The notes beneath the pieces are model-generated. The model worked only from the letters and a program-made list of their open reading frames with translations, had not been told where the DNA came from and did no database searches. A DNA stretch of 64,000 bases, from contig NZ_SJPT01000001.1 of assembly GCF_007860095.1 (NCBI RefSeq), positions 262,212-326,211 of the forward strand, written 5' to 3'. This document shows, in pieces, positions 14,021 through 50,481 of this stretch; within the stretch, counting starts at the first letter, position 1; the number at the start of each line of letters is the position of its first letter. Made by a program: the position numbers and the translations under genes. Source of the stretch: Novipirellula galeiformis. GTDB lineage: Bacteria > Planctomycetota > Planctomycetia > Pirellulales > Pirellulaceae.

Positions 14021-15634
14021 ATGAAGTCGATGGACAAAATCGTTTCGCTGTGCAAGCGACGTGGCTACCTGTTTCAATCCAGCGAAATTTATGGTGGTAT
14101 CCAAGGATTTTGGGATTACGGTCCGCTTGGCGTCGAGCTCAAGCGAAATTTGAAAGACGCTTGGTGGCACGACATGATCGGCGGCCACAACGAGTTGATC
14201 CAACCGCAGACGGCGCCCTCGACCTTCGAGATGGTGGGGCTCGATAGCACGATCATCATGCATCCCCAAGTATGGAAGTGTAGCGGTCACTATGACCTGT
14301 TTCACGACCATATGGTCGATTGTCGCGAGTCAAAGAAACGCTATCGCTTTGATCAAATTCGCGGTCGTTGGGTCGAGTACCAGGACAAAAAGGTGTTTGT
14401 GACCACGTTGGCCGAAGCCGAGCAAGAGCTTGATGAGGTCCGTCGCCGAGGCATGAAGTTCTTCAAGCTGCGCAACAAGGACGCGGACAAGATCGCTGTT
14501 GGCAATGAATCGCTCACGCTCGACAAGCTCGATTCGACCGTTGACGTTCTCGCGCCCGATGCCAAGAGCTTGGATACATTAACGGAGCCGCGCGAGTTCA
14601 ATTTGATGTTCAAGACGACGCTCGGAGCCCTCGGCGGGGCGGACGACACCACCTTCCTTCGTCCCGAAACCGCCCAGGGGATTTTTGTCAATTTCAAGAA
14701 CGTGCTCGACAGCAGCCGCATCAGCCTTCCCTTTGGGATCGGTCAAGTCGGCAAGAGTTTTCGCAACGAGATTACGCCGCGCAACTTTACCTTCCGCTCG
14801 CGAGAATTCGAGCAGATGGAGATTGAGTTCTTTTGTCACCCCGACCAGTCTCAAGAGTGGTACCGTTATTGGCGTGATCGCCGCTTAGAGTGGTACAAGA
14901 GTTTGGGACTTTCGGATGAATCGCTGATCATGCGCGAGCATCATCAAGAGGAGTTGGCGCATTACAGCGTGGGCACGGCGGATATCGAATACGCGTTTCC
15001 GTTCTTGCCCGAAGGCGAATACGGGGAATTGGAAGGGATCGCCCATCGAGGCGACTTTGATTTACGCAGCCACATGGAGGGCAAACTCGATCCCTCGACG
15101 CGTCCGATGCAAGTCGAGTTGGGCGAAGATGGCAAACCCAAGTACCGCGGCAGCGGTCGCGACCTGACCTATCGTGATGAAGCGACCAACGAAAAGTTTG
15201 TGCCGCATGTGGTCGAGCCTTCTGCAGGAGCGGATCGTGCCGTGTTGGCCTTCCTCTGCGAGGCTTTCACCGAAGACGAAGCTCCCGACGAGAACGGCAA
15301 ACTGCAAAGCCGTACGGTGATGAAATTGCACCCTCGTTTGGCTCCGATCAAAGCTGCCGTTTTTCCGTTGGTCAAAAAGGATGGCATGCCCGAGGTGGCT
15401 CACGAGATTTACGGCGAACTGAAACGGCACATGAACGTCTTCTACGATGAAAAGGGCGCGGTCGGACGACGTTATCGTCGTCAAGACGAAGCGGGCACGC
15501 CGTACTGTATCACCGTGGATACCGAAACGTTGACCGACAAAACGGTGACGATTCGTGATCGTGACACGTTGGAACAAAGCCGCGTCAAAATCGACGACGT
15601 GGTCGCCGAGTTGCAATCGCGTATCAACGCCTAG
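14021..15634 (+). CDS. glyQS: Glycyl-tRNA synthetase, dimeric type
   Basis: The 537-residue protein charges tRNA-Gly with glycine using ATP. It is the single-chain, class II, homodimeric type rather than the alpha2-beta2 type. The N-terminus (CKRRGYLFQSSEIYGG then WDYGPLGVELKRNL) is diagnostic, and class II motifs follow: FRPETAQGIFVNF near residue 215 and the motif 2 region FRNEITPRNFTFRSREFEQ near residue 248. The anticodon-binding domain lies in the last 130 residues (from about LHPRLAPIKAAVFPL). The length is normal for the family. An insertion between motif 1 and motif 2 (about 110-190) is rich in charged residues. It is a single-gene unit, convergent with the WavE-family gene. Confidence 0.97.
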   Translation: MKSMDKIVSLCKRRGYLFQSSEIYGGIQGFWDYGPLGVELKRNLKDAWWHDMIGGHNELIQPQTAPSTFEMVGLDSTIIMHPQVWKCSGHYDLFHDHMVDCRESKKRYRFDQIRGRWVEYQDKKVFVTTLAEAEQELDEVRRRGMKFFKLRNKDADKIAVGNESLTLDKLDSTVDVLAPDAKSLDTLTEPREFNLMFKTTLGALGGADDTTFLRPETAQGIFVNFKNVLDSSRISLPFGIGQVGKSFRNEITPRNFTFRSREFEQMEIEFFCHPDQSQEWYRYWRDRRLEWYKSLGLSDESLIMREHHQEELAHYSVGTADIEYAFPFLPEGEYGELEGIAHRGDFDLRSHMEGKLDPSTRPMQVELGEDGKPKYRGSGRDLTYRDEATNEKFVPHVVEPSAGADRAVLAFLCEAFTEDEAPDENGKLQSRTVMKLHPRLAPIKAAVFPLVKKDGMPEVAHEIYGELKRHMNVFYDEKGAVGRRYRRQDEAGTPYCITVDTETLTDKTVTIRDRDTLEQSRVKIDDVVAELQSRINA

Positions 15635-15639
15635 CGTCG

Positions 15640-15679
15640 GCGTTTAGTGTCCAACGCTTAGTGTCAACGCTTAGTGCGT
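15640..15679. repeat. Three imperfect 13-bp direct repeats
   Basis: Just after the glyQS stop, the unit ACGCTTAGTGTCA occurs three times in near tandem (15640-15652, 15654-15666, 15667-15679) with a few mismatches. Function unknown; it may be replication slippage. Confidence 0.7.
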
Positions 15680-15705
15680 TGTCACCGCGGGCCATATGAG
15701 AATGT

Positions 15706-15728
15706 GCTCGGTGGAACTTCCACCGAGC
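15706..15728. terminator. Hairpin between convergent glyQS and WavE-family gene
   Basis: GCTCGGTGGA and TCCACCGAGC form a perfect 10-bp stem with a 3-nt loop, placed between two convergent stop codons. There is no U-tract on either side, so it is a candidate bidirectional terminator or mRNA-end stabiliser, not a textbook one. Confidence 0.55.
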
Positions 15729-15768
15729 GTGAAGTGATGGCCCGAGTGATTGTACCAAGCCGATGCGA

Positions 15769-16863
15769 TTAGCTGACTTGCGACATTTTTGCCGCGGGAG
15801 CTTTGGCCAGGATCGCGTTGATCTTCTCGTGTTCTAAATCCTCGATTGTCACCGAGGGCCGCATTTGCATTTGAGCGATGCTGATCCAGTGGCGGAAGCT
15901 GCATGTCGCTAGATTTCGATACTCGTCATTCTCGCTGAGCGCGTGATTTTCGTGATAGTTGTACTTGGGCCAAAAGAAGCCAAGCGACGAACGGTCGAGG
16001 GTGATGAAACGATCGGCCAACAATTGCCACCATTGTTCGAGCGTTCCGTCAAGCGTGACGCCAAGTTGCTCGAGAAAGTGACGGCAAAGCCAAACTTCCG
16101 AAACCCAGACCTCGGAGCTTGGTTCTTGGATCAGTTCCCCAAAGTTCTGAGGTGCCAGCACAACCTGATTGTCAATACACAGGGGGGCGGACCAATAACG
16201 CAGCAAGTCTTCCGTGCGACCGAACATCAGGATGTCCGAAGGGTGATAGGGGATGTAGAGACGGGTGGCGTGGTCGAGTACCGCAATCCGTTCTTGCTGC
16301 ATGTCGTTACTGCGGATTGGGAACGACTTTAGTAGCCCCGTTAGAAAATCGCCGAGGTGGGGTGAGTGTAAACGCGTGTCGGTTCGCGTTTTCAACGTGT
16401 ACTTCGCCCCGAGCTGCTCAGCTTTTTCGATTCCGCGTCGCGTGGACACGATTTGCATGTTCAAATTCGCGGGGCCGAAGTGCTCCGGCGGAGGGCCCGT
16501 GACGATATGAATGCCCATTTGCTCGGCAGTGGAAAGGCAGTCTGGCGATGCGTCTTCCCAGGTAGACAGGATAATGGGTTGGTTTGCGAACAGCCCGCGA
16601 TAGAGTTTTAGCGTCTCGAGGGTTAGGTTGTCGCGGCAGACCACGGGGCCTTGAACGACGATGGCCATGTTGCTGGTGGTGTGAGATTCAAACGGCACCG
16701 GCGGGCACGTTTTAGAATATTGCGTGGCTACCTTCCAAGCCTCGTCATACTGATCGAGCTCGACACTCACTCGCTTGCTTAATCGCTCGAAATGATGACG
16801 TCGCTTCCTTGGCTTTCGCGTCAGGAAATTGATGAGCCAACATAGAAAATTCCACTTCCACAT
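15769..16863 (-). CDS. WavE-family lipopolysaccharide/glycan synthesis protein
   Basis: About 364 residues from the ATG at 16863, which lies 25 bp after the upstream stop; the frame is open further upstream, but that part would overlap the previous gene. A short hydrophobic segment (KWNFLCWLINFL) sits at the N-terminus. The conserved block MAIVVQGPVVCRDNLTLET begins near residue 67, followed by LSTWEDASPDCL and KTRTDTRLHSP, the acidic TRTD string being typical of this glycosyltransferase-like family. WavE was named from the Vibrio cholerae LPS core cluster; its exact sugar transfer is not firmly known. It is the last gene of a four-gene minus-strand operon with an ABC exporter, cupin and nucleotidyltransferase, so a role in decorating a surface glycan is likely. 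Donor and acceptor are unknown. Confidence 0.85.
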   Translation of the reverse strand: MWKWNFLCWLINFLTRKPRKRRHHFERLSKRVSVELDQYDEAWKVATQYSKTCPPVPFESHTTSNMAIVVQGPVVCRDNLTLETLKLYRGLFANQPIILSTWEDASPDCLSTAEQMGIHIVTGPPPEHFGPANLNMQIVSTRRGIEKAEQLGAKYTLKTRTDTRLHSPHLGDFLTGLLKSFPIRSNDMQQERIAVLDHATRLYIPYHPSDILMFGRTEDLLRYWSAPLCIDNQVVLAPQNFGELIQEPSSEVWVSEVWLCRHFLEQLGVTLDGTLEQWWQLLADRFITLDRSSLGFFWPKYNYHENHALSENDEYRNLATCSFRHWISIAQMQMRPSVTIEDLEHEKINAILAKAPAAKMSQVS

Positions 16864-16888
16864 CTTGCTGAGTCTTTGCCTAGAGGAG

Positions 16889-17665
16889 TTAAGCGGGAGT
16901 CCGTAGTTTTCGATTCGAACTCTGGATGCGGCTGGCAAAACCAAGCGTTAAGAAACGCTCCAAGTCTTCGGGGGTGCCCAGTCCGTACATCACGTTTCCT
17001 GCGTCGCCGACATTGTCCGTCGCGATCTTAGCTCCGTTGCGAATCAATCGTGAGTAGACCGGAGCGACATAAAATTCATTCTTCGATCGTTCGTTCGCCT
17101 CGATCATCTCAAATGCCGCTGCCACAAATGCGTTGCCTCGGGCAAAGTTGTAGATTCCCACGGTCGCTTCGTCGGAAACGACTTCCTTCTCCACAATGCA
17201 TTGCATCTCTCCTTGGGCATCGCGTTGGACATACGACCATTTGGGCGAATCGTCTTTCATCGTCATGACCAAGCCCTCAACGCCATCGGCATCGCCCATC
17301 GATAGATAGTCATCGATCGAATAGTCAATCCACTGATCGCAATTGGCGATCATCAGCGGTTGTTCGTTGTCAATCCATTCTTTCGCCAACAATACGGTGC
17401 AGGCGGCTCCCTGGGTGACTCCCTCGACGGAGACAATTTCACAGTCAGGGGAGGATTGCTTCAGCGTCTTCTCAAGCTCGTAAGATTCCAGATGTTGGGC
17501 TTGGCAGATAAAAATGAATCGATGCTCTCGTTGGGGACGAACATTTTCGATCACCGTTTGGATCATCGGTACCCCATGGACGGGGATCAACGGTTTAGGG
17601 ATGTCGTAGCCAGCTTGTTGGAATCGTGAACCACGTCCGGCCATGGGAATGACGATGTTAAGCAT
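16889..17665 (-). CDS. Sugar-phosphate-type nucleotidyltransferase
   Basis: This 258-residue protein is a nucleotidyltransferase fold enzyme. The N-terminus IVIPMAGRGSRFQQAGYDIP carries the glycine-rich nucleotide-binding signature, followed by KPLIPV with the conserved Lys, and ANCDQWIDYSID near residue 108 with the metal-binding Asp region. Such enzymes join NTP to a sugar-phosphate or another phosphorylated headgroup to give an activated donor. The single short domain without a beta-helix tail resembles those encoded in capsule and LPS clusters beside HAD and phosphodiesterase-like genes. It is 25 bp before the WavE-family gene and 50 bp after the cupin gene. The substrate cannot be read from sequence. 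Confidence 0.88.
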   Translation of the reverse strand: MLNIVIPMAGRGSRFQQAGYDIPKPLIPVHGVPMIQTVIENVRPQREHRFIFICQAQHLESYELEKTLKQSSPDCEIVSVEGVTQGAACTVLLAKEWIDNEQPLMIANCDQWIDYSIDDYLSMGDADGVEGLVMTMKDDSPKWSYVQRDAQGEMQCIVEKEVVSDEATVGIYNFARGNAFVAAAFEMIEANERSKNEFYVAPVYSRLIRNGAKIATDNVGDAGNVMYGLGTPEDLERFLTLGFASRIQSSNRKLRTPA

Positions 17666-17715
17666 TCCGGTTCTCTGGGTAAAAGATTTTGAAATGGGAA
17701 GGTCGGCGGAAGGTC

Positions 17716-18039
17716 TTAATCCAGGTATTTGTCGTCCGCAACGCTGGGGAATTTTAGGACGACCGTGATCGTTTCTTCTAACGCCGTAAAGTCGGTCGAC
17801 GTGCCAGGCGGGATTTCGACAATTTGTCCCGCTTCGTACTCCTGGCCGAGCATGCGTACACGACCACTTGCCACAACGGTGTATTCGGTTGCAATACGGT
17901 GATGGTGACTTGCTTCATAGTCGCCAGCAGCATATCGCTTGATCGCCACTTCCACTGCGTCTTGACGAAGAAGGGCGGGTTCAAAGTGGCCGGTCAACCA
18001 ACCGCCAACGAAGTCATCGAGATGTAAGGGTTTGGACAT
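17716..18039 (-). CDS. Small cupin-domain protein
   Basis: About 107 residues from the ATG at 18039, preceded by AGAGGAA at a good distance, which decides against the longer open frame. It is a single cupin barrel: motif 1 is ASHHHRIATEYTVVASGRVRM with clustered histidines that could bind a metal, and motif 2 is GQIVEIPPGTSTDFTALEE. Family members are sugar isomerases, dioxygenases or ligand sensors. Position between the ABC exporter and nucleotidyltransferase suggests a step on the same activated sugar or headgroup, or a sensing role. The catalytic function is not determined. Confidence 0.85.
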   Translation of the reverse strand: MSKPLHLDDFVGGWLTGHFEPALLRQDAVEVAIKRYAAGDYEASHHHRIATEYTVVASGRVRMLGQEYEAGQIVEIPPGTSTDFTALEETITVVLKFPSVADDKYLD

Positions 18040-18061
18040 TCGCTGTGTTCCTCTGAGCAAG

Positions 18062-20002
18062 TTATGCGGCGTAGCGGTTGTGAGTGAGGTTGCGGTCAAT
18101 TCGCATCGTGCCGTGTTCAAAATTCAACAAGATGTCGGCCATGTCAAGCATCGTGGATCGATGGGTAATGAAGATGACGGTGCAGTTTTGACAGGACTCT
18201 TGCAAGGTTTGATAGATCAATTGCTCGCTCTTGGCATCCACTTGGCTCGTCGCTTCATCGAGAATTAATATCTCAGGCTTCCGCAATAAAGCTCGGGCCA
18301 GGGCAATGCGTTGGCGTTGCCCGCCGCTCAATCGCAAACCGTTGTGTCCGATCCGCGTGTCATACTGATCGGGTAGTTCCGTGGTGATGAAATGGTCTGC
18401 GTGAGCCAGTTTCGCCGCTTCGACAATCTCTTCTTGTGTGGCGTTTTCACTACCATAGGCAATGTTGTAGGCAATCGTTTCGTTGAACAATTCCGTGGTT
18501 TGCGTCACCAGGGCGATGCTGCGGCGAAGATCGTGCAACCGTAGCGATCGAACGTCGACATCGTCCAAACACACACTGCCTTGCTGGGGGTCATAGAACC
18601 GGCACAACAGACTGATCAGCGACGACTTGCCGGCGCCGTTAGGGCCGACGATTGCCACCTTGGATTGAAACGGGATGGTCAATGAAATGTTGTTGAGGAC
18701 ATTGTGGACCCCATCGTAAGCAAACGTGACTCCCTTCAATTCGATCGCCGAGTGAGGTTTCGGAATGTCTACCGGATCGGCGGGGTCGGTGATCAAGCAT
18801 TGGCGGTCAAGCATCGGGTAGAGCATGTCCGCAGCGACCACGCCCGTGTTGATGCCGTCAATGATTTGAGCCATCTTGCGAACCGGATCGGTCGCCCCGA
18901 CCAGCAATCCGAAGAAGACCAACATGGACGCCACGCTGAGCGGGCGTTCGGTTATCGGAATGCCCCAAATCATCGTCGCTTGATTCATGACAAGGTAAGA
19001 TCCCGCGATGATCGCGGTGCCCATCATGCCCAACGCGAGGACTTCGGTGACCGGACGATTTAATGCGTTTAGGAACACGATGCGGACCGAAAAACGCTGC
19101 ATATCCAGGGTCGCTTTGTCAAAGCGTTTCTGCTCGTGGGGTTCACTCGTATACGCTTGCACGGTGCGGATGTTGCCAAGGGACTCGAGCATCACGTGGT
19201 GTAGCCCCATCGATTTTTCCAGCAAGCTGTGGCAAATCTTTTTGAGGGCCCGGCTGAGCACCCAAATCAGCAACGCCACGACCGGCACAATAATCAAGCT
19301 CAGTAGCATCAGTCGCCAACAAATCAGACTTGCCCCGATCAAGCACGAGAGCAATTTCAAGGGTTCGCGAATGGCGCCTCCATAAACGCTGACGATGCCG
19401 TTGGTCAACATGTCGGTGGTGTGAGTGATGTGGGCAACGAACCCGCTGTTGCCATAACCTGCAAATCCGGCTTGGTCCATCATCAACGCTTTGGCAAAGA
19501 TTTTTTGGCGAATTTGTCGTCCAATTCTCGCCGCCACCAGAGCGACGGTGTAAGTGTTGATGAGCTGGAAAATGTGTTTCAGCACGGTGCCAATCAATAA
19601 CATCACCATCACCAGAACCACCGTCTGGAATGGGCTTGTGGGAAGATAGTCGTCAACCCAGGGTTTCAGTTTCTGGGATGAAGCAAGCGATGCCTTTTCC
19701 GTCATCAACTGCGTTTGTAACATCTCAAGTTGAAGTGCATCGCGACGCTCCAGCGGTGTTGACTTGGCTTTAATCTCCGCGACTTGTAGCTGAACGTCCG
19801 AAATTCGGCTATGCGCTGAATCGATTTCTCGGTCGATCCAATCCTGCAGTGGCTCGCCCGCGATGGTGACCTCAATGACGGGAAATAATGCGCCAATGTT
19901 GATGCCCCACAGCGCGCCGGTTCCAACGGAACACAGGGTTGCTAGAACAAGCAATGGCCAGAAGCGAAACGCGTCGCGTAGAGAACGTTGGAAATTCTTC
20001 AT
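18062..20002 (-). CDS. MsbA-like ABC exporter (fused permease and ATPase)
   Basis: About 646 residues from the ATG at 20002; an upstream ATG at 20053 is possible. The membrane domain begins with FRFWPLLVLATLCSVGTGAL and continues with hydrophobic helices to about residue 370. Between the first and second helices lies an unusual polar, heptad-like insertion (about 45-120). The nucleotide-binding domain has Walker A GPNGAGKSS near 452, LSGGQ near 558, Walker B ILILDEAT near 580 and the H-loop ITHRST. It is the type IV (lipid A/glycolipid flippase-like) exporter layout. As first gene of the operon with cupin, nucleotidyltransferase and WavE genes, it probably flips a lipid-linked glycan or lipid. 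The substrate is inferred only. Confidence 0.93.
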   Translation of the reverse strand: MKNFQRSLRDAFRFWPLLVLATLCSVGTGALWGINIGALFPVIEVTIAGEPLQDWIDREIDSAHSRISDVQLQVAEIKAKSTPLERRDALQLEMLQTQLMTEKASLASSQKLKPWVDDYLPTSPFQTVVLVMVMLLIGTVLKHIFQLINTYTVALVAARIGRQIRQKIFAKALMMDQAGFAGYGNSGFVAHITHTTDMLTNGIVSVYGGAIREPLKLLSCLIGASLICWRLMLLSLIIVPVVALLIWVLSRALKKICHSLLEKSMGLHHVMLESLGNIRTVQAYTSEPHEQKRFDKATLDMQRFSVRIVFLNALNRPVTEVLALGMMGTAIIAGSYLVMNQATMIWGIPITERPLSVASMLVFFGLLVGATDPVRKMAQIIDGINTGVVAADMLYPMLDRQCLITDPADPVDIPKPHSAIELKGVTFAYDGVHNVLNNISLTIPFQSKVAIVGPNGAGKSSLISLLCRFYDPQQGSVCLDDVDVRSLRLHDLRRSIALVTQTTELFNETIAYNIAYGSENATQEEIVEAAKLAHADHFITTELPDQYDTRIGHNGLRLSGGQRQRIALARALLRKPEILILDEATSQVDAKSEQLIYQTLQESCQNCTVIFITHRSTMLDMADILLNFEHGTMRIDRNLTHNRYAA

Positions 20003-20441
20003 CCTATAAGCCTGTTGGCGTCCGTGCCTTTTCGCGAGATTCTGTCGTTCCATCCCGCTCAACAGCCTCACTAACCGGTCAGCCTGGAAAGAAGCGTCGC
20101 GCAATGGCGTCAAGTTGCAAGCGGATTTTCCGAGGATCATGGCACAGCGGTTTCGGATTTGGCAACCCCAATCGCTTGTGGTTGCAACCGATCCGCCGCA
20201 TCCGGATAAAAACGCGTGCTTGATGTAAAAGATTATCGGGCCAACACCAACATCCTCTGTGGAGGAGGTGCAATCGCGGTTGCAGCACGAAGCGTGGATT
20301 TGCTATTCCTCGGGTTGAGGATAGGTTTGCCGCGTGGCTGCGTCATCTGGGGTACATGGTCATCTGGGGTGCATGATGTGCAGCCTATGGCAAAATGAAA
20401 CGCTGTTCGCTAGCAAAAACGAAGTGGTTTCGATATCAGCG
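20003..20441. other. Divergent intergenic region with 17-bp tandem duplication
   Basis: These 439 bp separate the divergent ABC-exporter operon and the GDPD-like gene and should hold both promoters. GTCATCTGGGGTACATG occurs at 20342-20358 and again, with one change, at 20359-20375. A GCAACC...GGTTGC inverted pair lies near 20165. No gene is supported. Confidence 0.55.
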
Positions 20442-21101
20442 ATGATGGATGTGGAATTGTTGGCCCACCGAGGCCTGTGGAACGATGCCAGTGAGAAGAA
20501 TCAACGGCGCGCTTTGCGTTGCGCGTTAGATTCAGGTTTTGGGCTGGAAACCGATCTACGAGATTTTCAAGGCCAAGTCGTAATCGCACATGATTGTCCC
20601 ATCGCCGATCACAATGAAAAAATCACGCTGGATGATTTATGCCAGCTTTATCGCAAATCCGCTTCTCATGCTTGCTTGGCATTGAATATCAAAGCGGATG
20701 GACTCGCCGACATCGTTCATTCAACGCTGTTGAAGCACAAAATTGACAATTACTTTGTCTTTGACATGTCGGTTCCCGACCTGCTCGCCCACCTTCGCCA
20801 ATCGCAACACTGCTTCACTCGTCAAAGCGAATACGAATCGGTTCCCTCGCTGCTCCAACGCTGCGAAGGCGTTTGGCTCGATGCGTTTGAGTCACGTTGG
20901 TATGGTGAAGAGGTGATCGAGGCACATCTTTGCAGCGGTAAAAGTGTTTGCATCGTTTCATCGGAGCTTCACGGGCGTTCTGCTCACGAAGTGTGGCCTC
21001 TCGTTCGGCGTGTCGCCAAACGAAATCTCCATGATGCACGATTGTTGTTGTGTACGGACAACCCTAATGAGTTTAAAGGATTCATGAATGACCAAGATTA
21101 A
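20442..21101 (+). CDS. GDPD-like phosphodiesterase domain protein
   Basis: About 219 residues starting MMDVELLAHRGLW; the open frame extends upstream but without family character. The fold is the PI-PLC/glycerophosphodiester phosphodiesterase TIM barrel: HRG at residues 8-10, LETDLRD (metal-binding Glu and Asp) and VIAHD (second catalytic His) are all present, so it is probably active. The chain is shorter than typical housekeeping GlpQ and lacks a signal peptide, so it is likely cytoplasmic. The downstream HAD gene starts 14 bp inside this gene, implying translational coupling. Short GDPD-like genes of this kind occur in surface-polysaccharide loci with nucleotidyltransferase and HAD genes. 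The substrate is unknown. Confidence 0.85.
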   Translation: MMDVELLAHRGLWNDASEKNQRRALRCALDSGFGLETDLRDFQGQVVIAHDCPIADHNEKITLDDLCQLYRKSASHACLALNIKADGLADIVHSTLLKHKIDNYFVFDMSVPDLLAHLRQSQHCFTRQSEYESVPSLLQRCEGVWLDAFESRWYGEEVIEAHLCSGKSVCIVSSELHGRSAHEVWPLVRRVAKRNLHDARLLLCTDNPNEFKGFMNDQD

Positions 21102-21738
21102 GGCAGTCATTTTCGACATGGATGGCGTTCTGGTTGACGCGAAAGAGTGGCACTTCGATGCGCTAAATCGTGCCTTGGCTCTGTTTGGATTCCACATCAG
21201 CCAATTGGAGCATGTACGAGATTATGATGGGCTTCCCACTCGGCATAAGCTTGAAATGCTGACACAGAAGCAAGGGTTACCGTCGTCGCTTCATCGGTTT
21301 ATCAACCAGATGAAGCAGACATACTTGTATGAGATTGTTGAGCAGCAATGTGTTCCTAACCCGCAGCATATCGAGACGCTTCATCGATTGCGTGAGGAAG
21401 GTTTCTCGGTTGCACTTGCATCGAATTCGATTCGTCGCAGTGTCGACCTCTTAATGGAACGCACCGACCTCGGGCAGTTTATGCAGTGTACGTTTAGCAA
21501 CGAAGATGTTGCGTTACCCAAACCGCATCCTGAGATCTACCAATTGACCATGCAGCGACTCGGGTTTCTTCCCGAAGAGTGTTTGGTCGTTGAGGATGGT
21601 TTGTACGGGATACAAGCCGCCCAGCAGGCAGGCGCCCATGTCCACCGGGTCGATACGGTTCACGACGTTCACTACGCTGGCATTTGTCAGACGATTCAAC
21701 AGCTCGAATCGCAGACGCCATTACGCCGGGCCGTTTGA
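21088..21738 (+). CDS. HAD-family phosphatase/phosphomutase-like protein
   Basis: This 216-residue protein is a class I HAD hydrolase. Motif I is FDMDGVLVD (nucleophile and acid/base aspartates), motif II is ALASNSI, and motif III/IV is KPHPEIY then VVEDGLYGIQAA. The helical cap between motifs I and II resembles the beta-phosphoglucomutase subgroup. It could remove phosphate from, or rearrange, a sugar-phosphate or another small phosphorylated compound. It overlaps the GDPD-like gene by 14 bp and lies opposite the nucleotidyltransferase operon, consistent with shared use in making an activated headgroup. The exact substrate cannot be inferred. Confidence 0.9.
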   Translation: MTKIKAVIFDMDGVLVDAKEWHFDALNRALALFGFHISQLEHVRDYDGLPTRHKLEMLTQKQGLPSSLHRFINQMKQTYLYEIVEQQCVPNPQHIETLHRLREEGFSVALASNSIRRSVDLLMERTDLGQFMQCTFSNEDVALPKPHPEIYQLTMQRLGFLPEECLVVEDGLYGIQAAQQAGAHVHRVDTVHDVHYAGICQTIQQLESQTPLRRAV

Positions 21739-21830
21739 TCGCGTCGAACGGGTTTGCGGGGTGAACGACAATACGTCCCGCTTTGGGTTTGAGTGCTCCG
21801 GTTGAAGGACTCTGTCTCGTCCCGTTTAGT

Positions 21831-21942
21831 AACCCTTCGGAATCAACTTCGTTGTTAGCGGAGCGAGTCGCCCCATTGTGTCACCAGAGGGCTGCGCCCT
21901 GCCGCTATTATTTAGCAATGCCGAAGTTGATTCCGAACGGTT
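21831..21942. repeat. MITE-like inverted-repeat element, 112 bp
   Basis: The 410-bp gap 21739-22148 contains no gene. Within it, 21831-21851 and 21922-21942 are inverted copies of each other over 21 bp with one mismatch (16 bp at 21836-21851/21922-21937 match perfectly). A smaller hairpin (AGGGCTGCGCCCT, 21888-21900) lies inside. No target-site duplication was evident. It could be a small non-autonomous element or a large terminator for the flanking convergent genes. Confidence 0.75.
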
Positions 21943-22148
21943 CCTTAGGAGGGCAGGCCAGGACCGGACATTGGCGACTGATAGCCGTTGCGAGTTGGAG
22001 ACCACCCCGGTTTATGACGTTGCGGGGGGAGGCATCTGAGGTCACGATGTGGCACCTTGCAACCCTTCACTGAATTGGTGAGGGCATGGTCAAGGGGATT
22101 GCACGCGGCGATCTTTTTCTAACTCGGATGCGGTTCGGCAGGGGGACG

Positions 22149-23204
22149 CTAGGCGGTTTGGCGAATGGTCAATTCTTGATAGCGTGTCAGTGCGGAGGTG
22201 TCGATTCCGCGGCAGAGAAAGACGACTTGGTTACGTGTCCTCAGTGTAATGCGTGGCACCGACAACTTGGCACACGCGAAGTGAACCGCTTTGGCGACCG
22301 CCTCGCACTGGGTGTCATGAAACGCCATCACAAATCGATTGGGATTCAATCGTCCCAGGATGGATTCCACGTCTTTGACGGGCTGTTCCCCGAAATGCCC
22401 GCCATCAATAAACGCAAAGTCAAATTCTCGCCCTTGCGTCAGCTCGTCCACATGAAGCGGGCTGAAACCGACTTGGTAATCAATGATGTTTGCAATCCCG
22501 AGCTGCTCGGCGCCCCATCGGGCAAACCGCAATCCTTCGGGAATGTCGCTCTCAGTGCCGTTTTTCAAAGCGGCGCGAAGTGACTCCGCGTGCTCACGAG
22601 CGCGCTCTTCGGTGTACTGGAAATCTTCCTCGGCTTCCTCGATATAGGCGTCCACGCTTAGCAACGATCCGCCTGTCGCCTGGAACGCCATGCCAAGATA
22701 AAAGCTGCTGTAGCCAAACGCTGTCGCGATCTCATATCCGCTCTTCAGTTGGTTGTCCGCGATCACCTTGTACAGCATCAACCCTTCTTCGTCAGTGAGC
22801 GAATAGGGAAACGCTTTGTTTTTAAGTTTGTGCATCCAATCGAGATCGTCGAGGGGCTGCTCATGTGGGAATAGCACTCGATCCAATTGTTCGTGAATGG
22901 GAGTCATTCGAGTGAGCACCTCGTCGGACAATCTCAGCCGCTCGGGATGGTACTTGGCAAACACCGAAGGCTTACGTGCCTCATGTTCAAGGCAATCGAG
23001 ACGTTGCATGCAGGTCTGCAACGTCGGGGCTGAGGATTGGTTTTCCACTCGATGCGACAATTGCGATACCGCTTCGCGTAATTCGGTTCGATCCGCTTCG
23101 AGGTCTCTCAGCCTCCCTTTCCATTGGCGAGATTTGCGCTGCAATGCGACTCCGACTACGACAGAAAGAATCGTGCCTGTTATTGCAAAAATGGTTGTCA
23201 GCAT
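22149..23204 (-). CDS. Membrane-anchored SAM-dependent methyltransferase
   Basis: This 351-residue protein starts with a hydrophobic helix (FAITGTILSVVVGVALQ), followed by a coiled-coil-like region (about 25-70) and a C-terminal Rossmann methyltransferase domain (about 140-330). The SAM motif is YEIATAFGYSSFYLGMAF, followed by LLSVDAYIEE (acidic residue after strand 2), and later FDFAFIDGGHFGEQPVKDV, the class I pattern of the Methyltransf_24 group that acts on sugars or small molecules. The anchor suggests action at the inner membrane face. It sits beside the surface-glycan genes, so glycan or lipid methylation is plausible but unproven. It is transcribed alone toward the HAD gene. Confidence 0.8.
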   Translation of the reverse strand: MLTTIFAITGTILSVVVGVALQRKSRQWKGRLRDLEADRTELREAVSQLSHRVENQSSAPTLQTCMQRLDCLEHEARKPSVFAKYHPERLRLSDEVLTRMTPIHEQLDRVLFPHEQPLDDLDWMHKLKNKAFPYSLTDEEGLMLYKVIADNQLKSGYEIATAFGYSSFYLGMAFQATGGSLLSVDAYIEEAEEDFQYTEERAREHAESLRAALKNGTESDIPEGLRFARWGAEQLGIANIIDYQVGFSPLHVDELTQGREFDFAFIDGGHFGEQPVKDVESILGRLNPNRFVMAFHDTQCEAVAKAVHFACAKLSVPRITLRTRNQVVFLCRGIDTSALTRYQELTIRQTA

Positions 23205-23331
23205 AGTGGGGGGGGGAATATCGAAGGGAGGAGTGGCTGCGGAATAGACGCGTTAAAGGTTTAGTGCTGAATTTGCGCCAGCGTCAAGTGAAGATAGTGG
23301 TTGGCTCGAAGGGCGCAGGCGATTCGGAAGC

Positions 23332-24777
23332 TTAGTGAGCGATCATGCAGTTGGCCAACCAGCCGCGTTTCAGTCCCGGGTCGGGGGCGATACTCGGTAA
23401 CCCGGCGTTTTCAAAAACACCGCCCGCGGCTTGGATGCCGCTGATTACGGCGCCTTCCATCGTCGCGGGCCAACCGGTGCGTGTCCAGTCGCCTGCGAGG
23501 CAAAGCCAGGGTAATTTCTCCGGGGCAGGGGAGGGTGACGGACGAAGTTGCTCGACCGTTGGCCGGACGGAGAACACCGAGTTGGGGTCGGTGACGACGC
23601 GGTGCCGCAGTAGCGTTGCGGACTTGGTCGGTGGAAACACGGCCCCTAATTCCGACAACACTTGCCGGACGATCTCATCCTTTGACGATCCGCTCATCGG
23701 ATGCGATCCGCTGATCACCACTTGGTAGTAGTGCTCCGAGCTGTTTTTCGCAGCTTGGAATTGGCCACACGGCTGGCGAAACAACCACTGCGTCAACGTG
23801 TCGACCAACACCGCGTGGGGACGCTCGGTGATGGGGCGATCGAACCACAAGTGCAGCCCGCTGATCGGGGAGGATGGAAAGTGTTCAAACGAACTCAAGC
23901 GAGGCAGGATCCGAGCGATTTCGGGATCATCAAACAGCCGTGCAACGGTGTGCCATGGGACGGCGCTGATCACGTGGTCCGCTGCGATCCGTTGTCCGTC
24001 ACTGGTGAGTACGGCTTGAAGGTTTCCCTGGTGCGTTTGGATTTTTTGGGCTGGGGTTGCACAGCGTACCTTGACCCCAAGTTGCGTGAGCACGCCCACG
24101 ACGTCACGCCCAAAGAGCGTCGAGAGCGGGCGATCGGGAACTAGCACATCCGAAGCGCCGCGTGCCGCCGCAAAGCCATCGACAAAGACCTTTCGCGCTG
24201 CCGTCATCGAGGCGTGTTGGCTGGATTCTCCTAACGCACTGGTCAAAATCACGTCCCAGAACAATCGAATCGTCTCGGCGCTTTGCCCATGGGATTGCAG
24301 CCACTCGGATGCGATCGCGTGATCGAGTTGGTGATGTGAGCTGCGAATCAGTTTCCACAGCCCGCGACGGATTTCATTTTTCTGCTTTCGATTCAAGTAA
24401 TTTAGCTTCCCAATCACGCTGGCGAGATGCAGCGGTGCGGGCAGCCATGTCGAAGGGGTGAATTTGCTGGGAGGAAAATGAGGGTGGAAGAACGTCAGTG
24501 ACTTGTAACGTCGCAGTGCATCGGTAAGCCCACATCGCGACAACAGCCCAATCAGGTTTGTGCAACAGCCCATCGCCACATGTTGGCAATAATCGAGCGT
24601 TTCGCCGCTATCGGGGTCCGTGAACGATCCCGCTCGTCCGCCAGCGACGCGTTTGGCTTCGAGCACGCTCACACGGAAGTGCTCGGGATGATGACGGACG
24701 ATGCATTCCGCGGCAGCTAAACCGGCTACCCCGCCACCGACGATCACGACATGACGCCGATCCTCACTGCCGCTCAT
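23332..24777 (-). CDS. hpnE: Hydroxysqualene dehydroxylase HpnE
   Basis: This 481-residue flavoprotein belongs to the amine oxidase/phytoene desaturase-like family. The FAD-binding motif VVIVGGGVAGLAAAE sits at residues 10-24, LEAKRVAGGRAGSF follows, and the C-terminal LCLAGDWTRTGWPATMEGAV completes the FAD site. In the HpnCDE route the enzyme reduces hydroxysqualene to squalene. The start codon overlaps the hpnD stop (ATGA), so the two genes are translationally coupled. The N-terminal Rossmann motif rather than a signal peptide indicates a cytoplasmic, membrane-associated enzyme. Gene order hpnC-hpnD-hpnE supports the name over a carotenoid desaturase. Confidence 0.93.
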   Translation of the reverse strand: MSGSEDRRHVVIVGGGVAGLAAAECIVRHHPEHFRVSVLEAKRVAGGRAGSFTDPDSGETLDYCQHVAMGCCTNLIGLLSRCGLTDALRRYKSLTFFHPHFPPSKFTPSTWLPAPLHLASVIGKLNYLNRKQKNEIRRGLWKLIRSSHHQLDHAIASEWLQSHGQSAETIRLFWDVILTSALGESSQHASMTAARKVFVDGFAAARGASDVLVPDRPLSTLFGRDVVGVLTQLGVKVRCATPAQKIQTHQGNLQAVLTSDGQRIAADHVISAVPWHTVARLFDDPEIARILPRLSSFEHFPSSPISGLHLWFDRPITERPHAVLVDTLTQWLFRQPCGQFQAAKNSSEHYYQVVISGSHPMSGSSKDEIVRQVLSELGAVFPPTKSATLLRHRVVTDPNSVFSVRPTVEQLRPSPSPAPEKLPWLCLAGDWTRTGWPATMEGAVISGIQAAGGVFENAGLPSIAPDPGLKRGWLANCMIAH

Positions 24778-25784
24778 CGATGATTCACTTCCGCTTGGGC
24801 GTTGCCACGCAGTGGAGCGGTCACTTCGAGAGGCGGGACCGGCAATCGTCGAAAACTAGGAGGCCAAAAATGTTGTGAAACCAGGCCAATTCGATCGCTC
24901 GGGGAAAGCGTGATTCGGCACACGGCAATGCGGGTCGGATCTTCCTCGATTCGCGTCAACAACCGTCGATAGGTCCGCCACATCATGCTGAAAATTGGCT
25001 GTCCGTCGGGGTGAATGCTGTCCCAAATTTTCCATCCCGAATCGAACAGACGCTTGGCACGCAGAATCTCGTCTTGGAGCAAGCAGCGAAGTCGGTTGTC
25101 CCGTCGGAGCGTTAAAATATCGTCTTCGCACAAGCCATGTTGTTCGTAATGTTGTCGCGGCAGATAGATGCGTCCCCGTTTCGCATCTTCAACCACGTCG
25201 CGGAGGACGTTGGTCAATTGGAAAGCGAGTCCACAATCGACCGCCGATTCGAGCGGCAACGGTTCCTCGAATTCCCAGATATGTAAACACGCCAAGCCGA
25301 CCGCAGAAGCAACAAGGTAGCAATAGTGTTCGAGTTGTTCGTAGGTTTCAAAGCGGGTCTTCTGTTGGTCGGCGAGCACGCCGTCAATGATTTCGAGTAG
25401 GTACCGCGACGGAATTTTGTATTGTGCCGATGTGTGTCGCAGCGCCGGCAAGATTTCTCGAGCCTGTTGATACAACTGGCTGGCCCATGCTGGCTCTTCT
25501 CCCACCGGGCCTTCGGGAAGGATGATTTTTGAATGCGAACTGTCGCTAATCAAGTTGATTGCGGTCGTTTGACGCCACCACTCTAGCCACCGGCCACGAA
25601 TCGCCGCAGGCTCATTGCAATCTCCCAAATCGTCGGTGATCCGCGCAAACGCATAGAGCGCGCACATCGCTTCGCGTTTGGGCCGCGGAAGCAACCAAAA
25701 CGAACGATAAAAGTTGCTTCCACTTCGTCGCGACAAACGACGAGCAAAGTGATAGCTAGTGGCAACGGGGATTTCCTCGGGCAT
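24774..25784 (-). CDS. hpnD: Presqualene diphosphate synthase HpnD
   Basis: About 336 residues, start chosen at MPEEIP (25784) because the family begins here; the frame is open to 25877. It is a trans-isoprenyl diphosphate synthase of the squalene/phytoene synthase family, with both aspartate-rich metal sites: ITDDLGD and, later, NVLRDVVEDAKRGRIYLP. HpnD joins two farnesyl diphosphates head to head to give presqualene diphosphate. It lies between hpnC and hpnE; the hpnE start overlaps its stop. The assignment of HpnD versus HpnC rests on order and on the better-conserved DxxxD sites, so the two names could be swapped. A phytoene synthase function is less likely in this context. Confidence 0.88.
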   Translation of the reverse strand: MPEEIPVATSYHFARRLSRRSGSNFYRSFWLLPRPKREAMCALYAFARITDDLGDCNEPAAIRGRWLEWWRQTTAINLISDSSHSKIILPEGPVGEEPAWASQLYQQAREILPALRHTSAQYKIPSRYLLEIIDGVLADQQKTRFETYEQLEHYCYLVASAVGLACLHIWEFEEPLPLESAVDCGLAFQLTNVLRDVVEDAKRGRIYLPRQHYEQHGLCEDDILTLRRDNRLRCLLQDEILRAKRLFDSGWKIWDSIHPDGQPIFSMMWRTYRRLLTRIEEDPTRIAVCRITLSPSDRIGLVSQHFWPPSFRRLPVPPLEVTAPLRGNAQAEVNHR

Positions 25785-25955
25785 ACGATGATGATACTCA
25801 GGTGCCAAGTGGAGTTGGAGGCCCCCCCATTCTAGAGCATGGAGGTCGATCGCGTTGCCGCGATCGCAGAGAAGCACATCGACCGGAATCGTTTCAGTGT
25901 AGGCGAACGTTCCATGGCTACGGCCGCTTACAGCGGATCATTCCTGGCCCGATGT

Positions 25956-26825
25956 TTAACGCCTCGCGATCAGGGATCGCAGGACCAAGCGAGCCTGAGT
26001 CGTCTTGCTGACCTTGGGGCGTTTTCGCATCACATCGAAATCAATCGCCCGGATGGCGTCGAGCGTTGCTAGGCCTCCGCCGGCAAACAACCGCAGACTT
26101 CGTCCAAGCCAATGCGGGACTCGGTCGCACAGCGGCATCCCGCGATGGAAAAAGGCCTCGGTTTGGTTGCATTGATGCTGGATCAGTCGTTTGAGTGCCT
26201 TGTCGGTCGACCGGTTGCTCGCCATGGAATCGAATTGCGACTCGGAAATGCCAAAGGAACGCAATTCGGATTGAGGGATATAAATTCGCCCGATCGCATA
26301 ATCTCGCGCCACGTCTTGCCAAAAATTGGCCAATTGAAGTCCCGTGCAAATTTGATCCGACAATGCTAAATCGGTCTCGTTGTCGTCCGCTTCCGCCATT
26401 CTCAGCACGATCCGGCCGACCGGATTGGCGCTGCGGCGACAGTAGTTATTCAGTTCGTCAACCGTTTCGTAGCGAGTTTGATGTTGGTCTTGGCGGAAGG
26501 CGTCCAATAAATCGTCAAACGGGGTTTGGTCCAGACGAAACGGGGGGATCGTTTTAGCCAGTGCAAGGAAGATTCCGTCTGCCGGGTGCCCCTGGAACGT
26601 GGCGTCGAGCGAAGCTTGGAATTCGGAAAGGGCACGCAGGGCTGCCTCGGGCGTCGCCGATTCATCGGCCAAATCGTCCGCCGTGCGGCAAAATGCATAG
26701 ATGTTATAGAATGGCTGCCGCAATCGGTGGGGCAACAGCACGCTGGCGACCAGGAAATTTTCGTAATGCGAACGGGCAAGCCGTCGGCACTCTCGCTCGG
26801 CTTGTCGGACAGGGTCGCCTTTCAT
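25956..26825 (-). CDS. hpnC: Hydroxysqualene synthase HpnC
   Basis: About 289 residues from ATG 26825. It is a second squalene/phytoene synthase-family protein: CRTADDLADE is the first aspartate-rich site and NFWQDVARDYAIGRIYIPQ the second. In the three-enzyme route HpnC turns presqualene diphosphate into hydroxysqualene, with water as acceptor, and HpnE then makes squalene. It is the first gene of hpnC-hpnD-hpnE, and its promoter shares a 260-bp gap with divergent ispH. No Shine-Dalgarno is evident. In planctomycetes squalene feeds hopanoids and sterols; no cyclase is present in this window. Confidence 0.9.
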   Translation of the reverse strand: MKGDPVRQAERECRRLARSHYENFLVASVLLPHRLRQPFYNIYAFCRTADDLADESATPEAALRALSEFQASLDATFQGHPADGIFLALAKTIPPFRLDQTPFDDLLDAFRQDQHQTRYETVDELNNYCRRSANPVGRIVLRMAEADDNETDLALSDQICTGLQLANFWQDVARDYAIGRIYIPQSELRSFGISESQFDSMASNRSTDKALKRLIQHQCNQTEAFFHRGMPLCDRVPHWLGRSLRLFAGGGLATLDAIRAIDFDVMRKRPKVSKTTQARLVLRSLIARR

Positions 26826-27085
26826 TGTCGGTGTATCGCGATTTTTTTGGGGGCGTCCATCGAGGAAAACCGGAGGCAATGATGCGTTGGGTCAAGGCCG
26901 GCGACACGTTGGGGCAAGCCCGGCGAGGAAGGGAAGCGTGCATGCATCTAGGGAGATAGCAAAGTGATTTCTGCCCTTCCCAAACGCGAATTGTAGAGGG
27001 GCTTTCCAGATGCTGCCATGATGCGACAATTGACAGCGGGAGTTCACCCCCGAAGTCTCCACTTTCCTCACGTTATTGGCATCCC

Positions 27086-50160: not shown

Positions 50161-50312
50161 CTGTTACTGCAGCGGAAGTCGTCAAGACTTTCGGTGGGTT
50201 ATCGGCACGGTCAGGACTCGTGTCACGCTGCCAGAATTCGGCATTCCGTGGTAACTTCGTTTACGCAAGTTGTGGTTCGATTCTTAGTCGCGATAGCGAC
50301 GGCAGGCAGTAG

Positions 50313-50481
50313 CCTCGGACGTGAGTCCGGGGAACAGGTCAACCTTGCGAACCCCCAGTCGCGAAGCGACGACAGGTGCCGATTCCTGGTTGTTTATTCG
50401 TGCATATATCCGGGTTTCCTGTCGTCGCGTTGCGACTCGGCTTCGCTTTGTTTTCCCAAACCACGGACTCACGTCCGTGGC
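50313..50481. repeat. REPIN-like inverted doublet
   Basis: In the 492-bp gap 50161-50652, which has no gene, two hairpins are inverted copies: CCTCGGAC-GTGA-GTCCGGGG (50313-50332) and CCACGGAC-TCAC-GTCCGTGG (50461-50480). Inner arms at 50358-50376 and 50418-50436 also pair over 17 of 19 bp. The whole could fold as one long hairpin. The pattern resembles REP doublets; no RAYT transposase is nearby. Confidence 0.75.

Follow-up and report, generated by a model that had tools for sequence, protein, structure and literature searches.

A horizontally moving gene cassette with a GDPD-fold protein in Novipirellula galeiformis, a candidate source of a surface-glycan donor

The locus analyzed here lies in a 64,000-nucleotide stretch of the Novipirellula galeiformis genome (contig NZ_SJPT01000001.1 of assembly GCF_007860095.1, positions 262,212 to 326,211; hereafter the window, to which coordinates without a locus number refer). 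It comprises an operon encoding a WavE-family protein, a nucleotidyltransferase (NTP1), a small cupin, and an MsbA-like ABC exporter, and a divergently transcribed pair of genes encoding a GDPD-fold protein and a HAD protein (Table 1). The last two proteins and NTP1 form a core that recurs as a linked set in planctomycetes and proteobacteria. On balance we think it probable that the locus is a horizontally moving surface-glycan cassette, in which this core makes a nucleotide-activated donor of a unit, here denoted X, and feeds it to the WavE transferase and a local exporter.

Gene content of the locus

Table 1. Features of the locus and positions of the degenerate nucleotidyltransferase paralogue NTP2 in other loci (L numbers)
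Feature	Position	Strand	Likely start	Full ORF extent	Basis
WavE-family protein, probable transferase, GT-A-like core	15769-16863	-	ATG 16863	15769-16944 (TTG 16944)	PF07507
NTP1, sugar-phosphate-type nucleotidyltransferase, GxGSRF...PKP intact	16889-17665	-			PF00483
Small cupin	17716-18039	-	ATG 18039	17716-18120	weak Pfam match; 11-sequence alignment
MsbA-like ABC exporter	18062-20002	-	ATG 20002	18062-20140	PF00664, PF00005
Divergent intergenic region, 439 bp, both promoters expected	20003-20441
GDPD-fold protein, divergent family, 219 aa	20442-21101	+	ATG 20442	20334-21101 (GTG 20334)	structure model
HAD protein, beta-phosphoglucomutase/sugar phosphatase type	21088-21738	+			HAD_2, family matches
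Methyltransf_24 protein, extra member of the planctomycete form	22149-23204	-			PF13578, 5.4e-9
NTP2 in L008	12021-12752
NTP2 in L015	10346-11080
NTP2 in L018	10258-11004
NTP2 in L020	10250-10990
NTP2 in L042	6590-7312

The list of open reading frames (ORFs) and Pfam searches place a four-gene operon and a divergent GDPD-like/HAD pair where the initial annotation had them, with the six ORFs of the kinds it named, and the recomputed coordinates reproduce the 14-bp overlap of the GDPD and HAD genes (21088-21101). Four ORFs extend upstream of the starts adopted here; these later starts are probably the correct ones, because relatives begin there. With them, the apparent overlaps within the operon vanish: its genes are then spaced 22, 50, and 25 bp apart, and 439 bp lie between the two divergent groups. 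Scans for promoters and terminators gave fewer sites than in shuffled sequence; the sole promoter-like site in 15600-22200 is at 20165-20136 on the reverse strand, against an average of 4.5 in shuffles. An Rfam search gave no match within the module. The G+C content of the module genes (0.49-0.54) is below the window mean of 0.56, although the GlyRS gene has 0.55.

Distribution and two types of loci

The GDPD-like protein was found in five of 119 genomes of the family, and NTP1 (E<=1e-30, a threshold of our choice) in the same five genomes at the same places; WavE is present in three of the five and in none of the other family genomes. With kinship ignored, the probabilities of these coincidences are 5.5e-9 for GDPD and NTP1 and 3.7e-5 for WavE. 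Absence of the GDPD/HAD pair from the neighborhood of the operon in relatives had been named beforehand as an outcome that would speak against a module, and the linkage was observed instead.

Thirty loci from planctomycetes, α- and γ-proteobacteria, and viral-collection contigs were read, each as a stretch of 10-21 kb beyond which genes are missed, using gene profiles built partly from the same loci. The GDPD-like protein and a nucleotidyltransferase are present in all 30. In the 23 loci of type A, the HAD gene is always beside the GDPD gene and NTP1 is always found, accompanied by NTP2 in 16 loci, the cupin in 13, and WavE in 13. NTP2 was counted at >=214 bits, as its own ORF or a fusion, which leaves out a 59-bit match in L019; a 29-bit WavE match in L042 is likewise excluded. 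L007 and L008 were fetched by an NTP1 query, so that NTP1 there is not independent evidence; the remaining ones of type A derive from GDPD queries or are the window itself. NTP1 is split over two frames in Acetobacter persici (L051:6226-7010), and the HAD frame is broken in genome G025 (L010:3669-4333); both were counted as having the gene, as was L021, which ends inside NTP1.

Gene order in type A loci takes several forms. Eight loci (L013, L014, L045-L050) have GDPD, HAD, a fusion of NTP2 and NTP1, and a third, more distant NTP-like gene; five (L008, L015, L042, L051, L052) have the order NTP1-GDPD-HAD-NTP2-cupin; and three (L018, L020, L053) have GDPD-HAD-NTP2-cupin-NTP1-WavE. The divergent arrangement without NTP2 is seen in the window, L007, L009, and L010, and in L017 the parts lie in two runs. 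In the seven type B loci (L011, L012, L016, L022, L043, L044, L054), a nucleotidyltransferase is always present, the GDPD-like protein is shorter, and the module's HAD, cupin, and WavE are not found in any of the seven. Pfam-tested neighbors there include class II aldolases (L016, L011), a phosphoribulokinase-type protein and another HAD (L016, L022), and a 2H-phosphoesterase and a histidine phosphatase (L011). Thus phosphate-handling enzymes recur in both locus types. Among the five family genomes, G000, G087, and G025 carry type A and G043 and G113, of one genus, carry type B.

The initial annotation had treated all six genes as one module. This is borne out for GDPD, HAD, and NTP1, whereas WavE, the cupin, and the exporter are optional and lie outside the defining core.

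The GDPD-like protein also occurs in 26 of 72,556 plasmid records, of which 18 were opened (seven Rhizobium records and H23, a Sinorhizobium, were left out). The type B locus L016 is on an IncR plasmid of E. coli, and its region is found in two of 5426 E. coli genomes, both times on plasmids. The idea that the module is an antigen locus of E. coli was considered and rejected: a DNA-level search of the ecoli_genomes collection, which would not pick up distant type A copies, gave no match to the GDPD-HAD DNA of Scandinavium. A link to erythritol was also dropped, as erythritol-type genes (names inferred) flank the R. tumorigenes locus only, among the annotated loci read. In most annotated records opened, the GDPD gene is labeled 'hypothetical protein' and the nucleotidyltransferase 'glycosyltransferase family 2'.

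Proteins of the module

The GDPD-like ORF of the window matches no Pfam and no NCBIfam family, and what these searches missed was settled by the fold. A structure model from six natural sequences (mean predicted local distance difference test score, pLDDT, 91.5; predicted TM score, pTM, 0.89) has 2o55 as its best solved match, with Z 21.5 and a root-mean-square deviation (rmsd) of 2.5 over 206 residues. Judged by title, 38 of the first 43 matches are GDPDs, phospholipases C or D, or similar proteins, the remaining five (7ww4, 7wwc, 9f5m, 9eul, 8cwp) being two multidomain glucanases, two phage spike proteins, and Protein D; other TIM barrels come after, at Z<=13.0. A PDB profile search with 17 relatives retrieved 3no3 (3.4e-7) and 1o1z (6.5e-5) via the HR...E-x-D...HD stretch. 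Invariant in the 17 sequences are H9, R10, N20, E36, D38, R40, H50, D51, N82, K84, R127, S129, E132, and D147. The His pair and the Glu-x-Asp metal site are kept: H9, E36, D38, and H50, which we take to have the catalytic and metal-binding roles, align with solved GDPDs. The Glu of the ExK motif, the third metal ligand in GDPDs, is replaced by Asn in all 17 sequences (N82, aligned with the Glu of LEIK in 7wwc).

As modeled, the protein is a member of the superfamily, but of a divergent family outside the Pfam model. It shares with the GDPD/PLC-like phosphodiesterases (2o55, 3no3, 2pz0) a full-length TIM barrel and the His-Arg, Glu-x-Asp, His-Asp, and x-Lys motifs, and differs from them in escaping the Pfam GDPD model, in the Asn replacing the ExK Glu, and in its tie to a nucleotidyltransferase in every locus read. 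The short cytoplasmic GDPD-like enzyme proposed originally agrees with the modeled fold and with the lack, by eye, of an N-terminal signal peptide.

The HAD protein (HAD_2, 7.3e-35) has relatives in which D10, D12, H22, K76, K145, E169, and D170 are invariant (12 sequences). Its earlier description as a HAD enzyme holds, and it belongs to the beta-phosphoglucomutase/sugar-phosphatase group, below every specific cut-off; it may be a phosphatase, as further described, or a phosphomutase.

NTP1 matches PF00483 (2.6e-14; 53.8 bits against a curated cut-off of 21.2), and the GxGSRF...PKP signature is found in all 11 aligned sequences, in one of them as GQRF. The closest named relative found is from Rhodopirellula sp. 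JC639 (70% identity), and the nearest solved relative of the NTP1/NTP2 profile is the nucleoside-diphosphate-sugar pyrophosphorylase 4evw (8.9e-32). NTP2, absent from the window, is a degenerate paralogue: GxGSR is lost in the five aligned proteins, two of which keep a partial PMAG...F...KP. Some pyrophosphorylases work as an active/degenerate pair, and sequence comparison suggests that most proteobacterial copies of the module hold such a pair.

The WavE protein of the window, the sole PF07507 match in its genome, passes the curated cut-off of that family (8.9e-22; 78.1 against 27 bits), and all 11 aligned relatives match it too. Its structure model is better over approximately residues 91-200, and the best PDB matches are GT-A glycosyltransferases (Z 13.5, rmsd 3.1, 161 residues); IspD cytidylyltransferases are among its 50 structure matches (Z 11.5-11.8), and a PDB profile search gave no hits. 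Conserved residues are R187/D189, D237, and E283. The model supports a GT-A-type core, from which a glycosyltransferase activity may be predicted. Of the earlier proposal that WavE attaches the activated unit, the GT-A-like core thus stands at the level of a low-confidence model, and the attachment step remains a prediction. No paper in the literature found states a tested activity for WavE; the surroundings of module loci of this family differ, ABC exporters or an O-antigen ligase being adjacent in some.

The cupin has sub-threshold Pfam matches (Cupin_7, 1.2e-4) and weak PDB profile matches, and in an alignment of 11 sequences HxHxxxxE is invariant and the His of the second motif is absent. 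The Methyltransf_24 protein has a hydrophobic N-terminus by eye. Its gene adjoins the module in G000, G087, and G025 and is absent from G013 and G077, of the same genus as the window; this pattern in five genomes indicates that it belongs to the planctomycete form. Class I methyltransferases distinct from it lie beside several copies of the module (L018:8128-9000, L013:7903-8727, L045:5934-6758, L007:13215-14030).

The best NCBIfam match of the window exporter is MsbA_lipidA, at 349.1 bits against an equivalog cut-off of 602. A second MsbA-like copy, 39% identical, is encoded on contig C5 of the same genome, so the window protein is not, as had been considered, the cell's sole MsbA-like protein. 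The surroundings of the C5 copy resemble those in G013 (ORF lists read), and for this reason the copy in the window looks dedicated to the module. Among the loci probed with it, this exporter is at the module only in the window, L007, and L009. Elsewhere, ABC permease/ATPase pairs, of the Wzm/Wzt type by reading, adjoin the module (Pseudomonas alcaligenes, P. caricapapayae, Scandinavium, and L042, where a rhamnan synthesis protein F match is also present), and the Ruegeria module has a flippase and an O-antigen ligase in its vicinity. The association of the set with export, as proposed originally, is seen in several loci. The same module accompanies the Wzm/Wzt-type pairs of ABC-exported glycan loci, whereas in the window the exporter slot is taken by a single MsbA-like protein. 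The P. caricapapayae run (L008) consists of a permease, an ATPase, NTP1, GDPD, HAD, NTP2, the cupin, two ORFs, and WavE. No other sugar-nucleotide gene was recognised in this run, whose upstream ORFs were not family-searched and whose contig ends soon after; hence X may be a main constituent there.

An exchangeable slot and the predicted pathway

Nucleotide homology between the window and G013 and G077 (L072, L073), the two other genomes of the genus retrieved by the search, ends at about 15634 and restarts at 23329, delimiting a cassette of approximately 7.7 kb. In G013 and G077 the same site is flanked by the ends of GlyRS and HpnE (the latter fragmented in G013) and holds a different MsbA-like exporter (33% identity), a 315- or 348-aa protein without a Pfam match, and a 198-aa protein, which is DUF2585 in G077. 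The GlyRS-HpnE interval (15635-23328) is thus an exchangeable slot, a site of cassette replacement. The module of G087 lies well away from GlyRS, at 5.28 as against 5.91 Mb. The module has also moved between phyla. A tree of 16 HAD proteins places that of planctomycete G356 with those of Ruegeria and Roseinatronobacter (support 98/99) and puts the window, G087, and JC639 in a separate group (100/100), and the G356 operon has the gene order of Ruegeria and Roseinatronobacter (GDPD-HAD-NTP2-cupin-NTP1-WavE). Squalene/hopanoid-type genes adjoin the cassette at 23332-26879; we take them to be HpnE, HpnD, and HpnC, of which the first was family-searched. Farther away, at 50286-50332, the window has an Acido-Lenti-1 RNA (39.4 bits, gathering score 37).

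The pathway that we predict starts from a phosphorylated compound in the cytoplasm: the GDPD-fold enzyme would cleave, or re-form, a phosphodiester, and the HAD protein would move or remove phosphate. NTP1 would then activate the resulting X-phosphate to NDP-X (the nucleoside diphosphate derivative), the WavE protein would add X to the glycan or glycolipid being built, with a possible cap from the methyltransferase, and the local ABC exporter would move the product outward. The 'headgroup' of the initial annotation is dropped from this scheme, as we found no evidence for a lipid headgroup. More tentatively, we suggest that the GDPD-fold step could be indispensable to a route not yet described, leading to a novel type of nucleotide-activated unit for the cell surface, derived from a phosphodiester or a cyclic phosphate, with an active/degenerate nucleotidyltransferase pair in most proteobacterial copies and spread of the cassette between phyla.

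Several observations weigh against the predicted cassette. The GDPD-like family escapes PF03009, which does not match the window protein and matches one of the 17 relatives at E 0.054, and its ExK motif has lost the Glu. WavE and the cupin are each lacking from 10 of the 23 type A loci in the stretches read, and the WavE model has a mean pLDDT of 56 overall. The module is rare: among 294 genomes of the phylum there are four full-length GDPD-like proteins (G000 and G356 of type A, G043 and G348 of type B), the other 20 matches being weak and partial, and two other genomes of the window's genus lack the module. The exporter family, in turn, is widespread in planctomycetes without the module, and some Rhizobium plasmid loci have no obvious adjoining transferase or exporter.

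Four other explanations were weighed against the predicted cassette. The strongest, which we regard as somewhat unlikely, is an ordinary NDP-sugar pathway, where the HAD protein would be a phosphomutase converting sugar-6-phosphate to sugar-1-phosphate, NTP1 would form the NDP-sugar, WavE would be a plain glycosyltransferase, and the GDPD-fold protein would be accessory. Relatives of NTP1 are mostly sugar-1-phosphate nucleotidyltransferases, and all 12 HAD proteins match TIGR02009 and TIGR01990 at E<=1e-5. Beta-phosphoglucomutase has a nucleophile and acid Asp pair, His20, and Arg49, which binds phosphate; its His20 (EYH20) aligns with the invariant H22 of the HAD proteins, but one pairwise alignment puts Arg49 opposite T51, an invariant Thr, and the window protein is far under the cut-off of the beta-phosphoglucomutase equivalog TIGR01990 (84.7 against 189.4 bits). 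Further, the GDPD gene stands beside the HAD gene in every one of the 23 type A loci, and in all seven type B loci, which lack this HAD, it accompanies a nucleotidyltransferase, a constancy which argues that the GDPD-fold protein is hardly accessory.

This tie to a nucleotidyltransferase, tighter than that to HAD (30 of 30 loci, two of them fetched by NTP1), would also fit a GDPD-fold enzyme acting after activation, so that it cleaves, edits, or cyclises a nucleotide- or lipid-linked unit instead of supplying a precursor. The Asn in place of the ExK Glu may signal changed chemistry, and a member of the 2H-phosphoesterase superfamily, some of whose enzymes open cyclic phosphates, is encoded in the type B locus L011. 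However, three of four weakly matching GDPD-type ORFs from other planctomycetes, exported-looking by eye, also have NxK, so that the change may mean little; we consider such a late step unlikely.

Still less probable is a CDP-alditol pathway like the CDP-6-D-glucitol or CDP-mannitol route. NTP1 has a sub-threshold Pfam match to IspD (0.029) and the window HAD one to hexitol phosphatase (83.7 against 191 bits), and capsules and lipopolysaccharides contain alditol phosphates (PMC10918830). The pathway described in that paper resembles the module in joining a nucleotidyltransferase to a partner enzyme in the making of an unusual surface-polymer donor. However, the published pair consists of a PF01128 cytidylyltransferase and a PF01370 reductase, whereas the module has GDPD and HAD and no recurrent reductase partner. 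The annotated loci (L049 and L050, which carry no annotation, were left aside) show no type of oxidoreductase that is regularly found next to the module; assorted oxidoreductases lie some kilobases away in a few of them (Azospirillum, Pseudomonas, Ruegeria).

Finally, a chance assembly of unrelated neighbors is hardly credible. In its favor, the window's gene groups are divergent and 439 bp apart and the exporter family occurs alone too; against it, GDPD and NTP1 are together in five of five genomes, at the probability given above, and form co-directional runs in other phyla, and for GDPD, HAD, and NTP1 chance is refuted.

A passage of PMC3584217 concerns ManC and is unrelated to the module. 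In the openly licensed literature we recognised no paper describing the gene set, which is weak evidence of absence, since the word 'wave' swamps searches for WavE.

A surface-glycan donor cassette is a known kind of system, and the phosphodiesterase-fold step is the unusual part of this one. Both the antigenicity of surface glycans and their identity as phage receptors are shaped by unusual donors, many of which have come to light only through chemistry; to our knowledge, little is known of the envelope glycans of the planctomycete group. The recurrent GDPD-HAD-nucleotidyltransferase set offers a direct handle, in the form of three small enzymes with an assayable product, and the module would give the WavE family a substrate and document an exchangeable surface-glycan slot.

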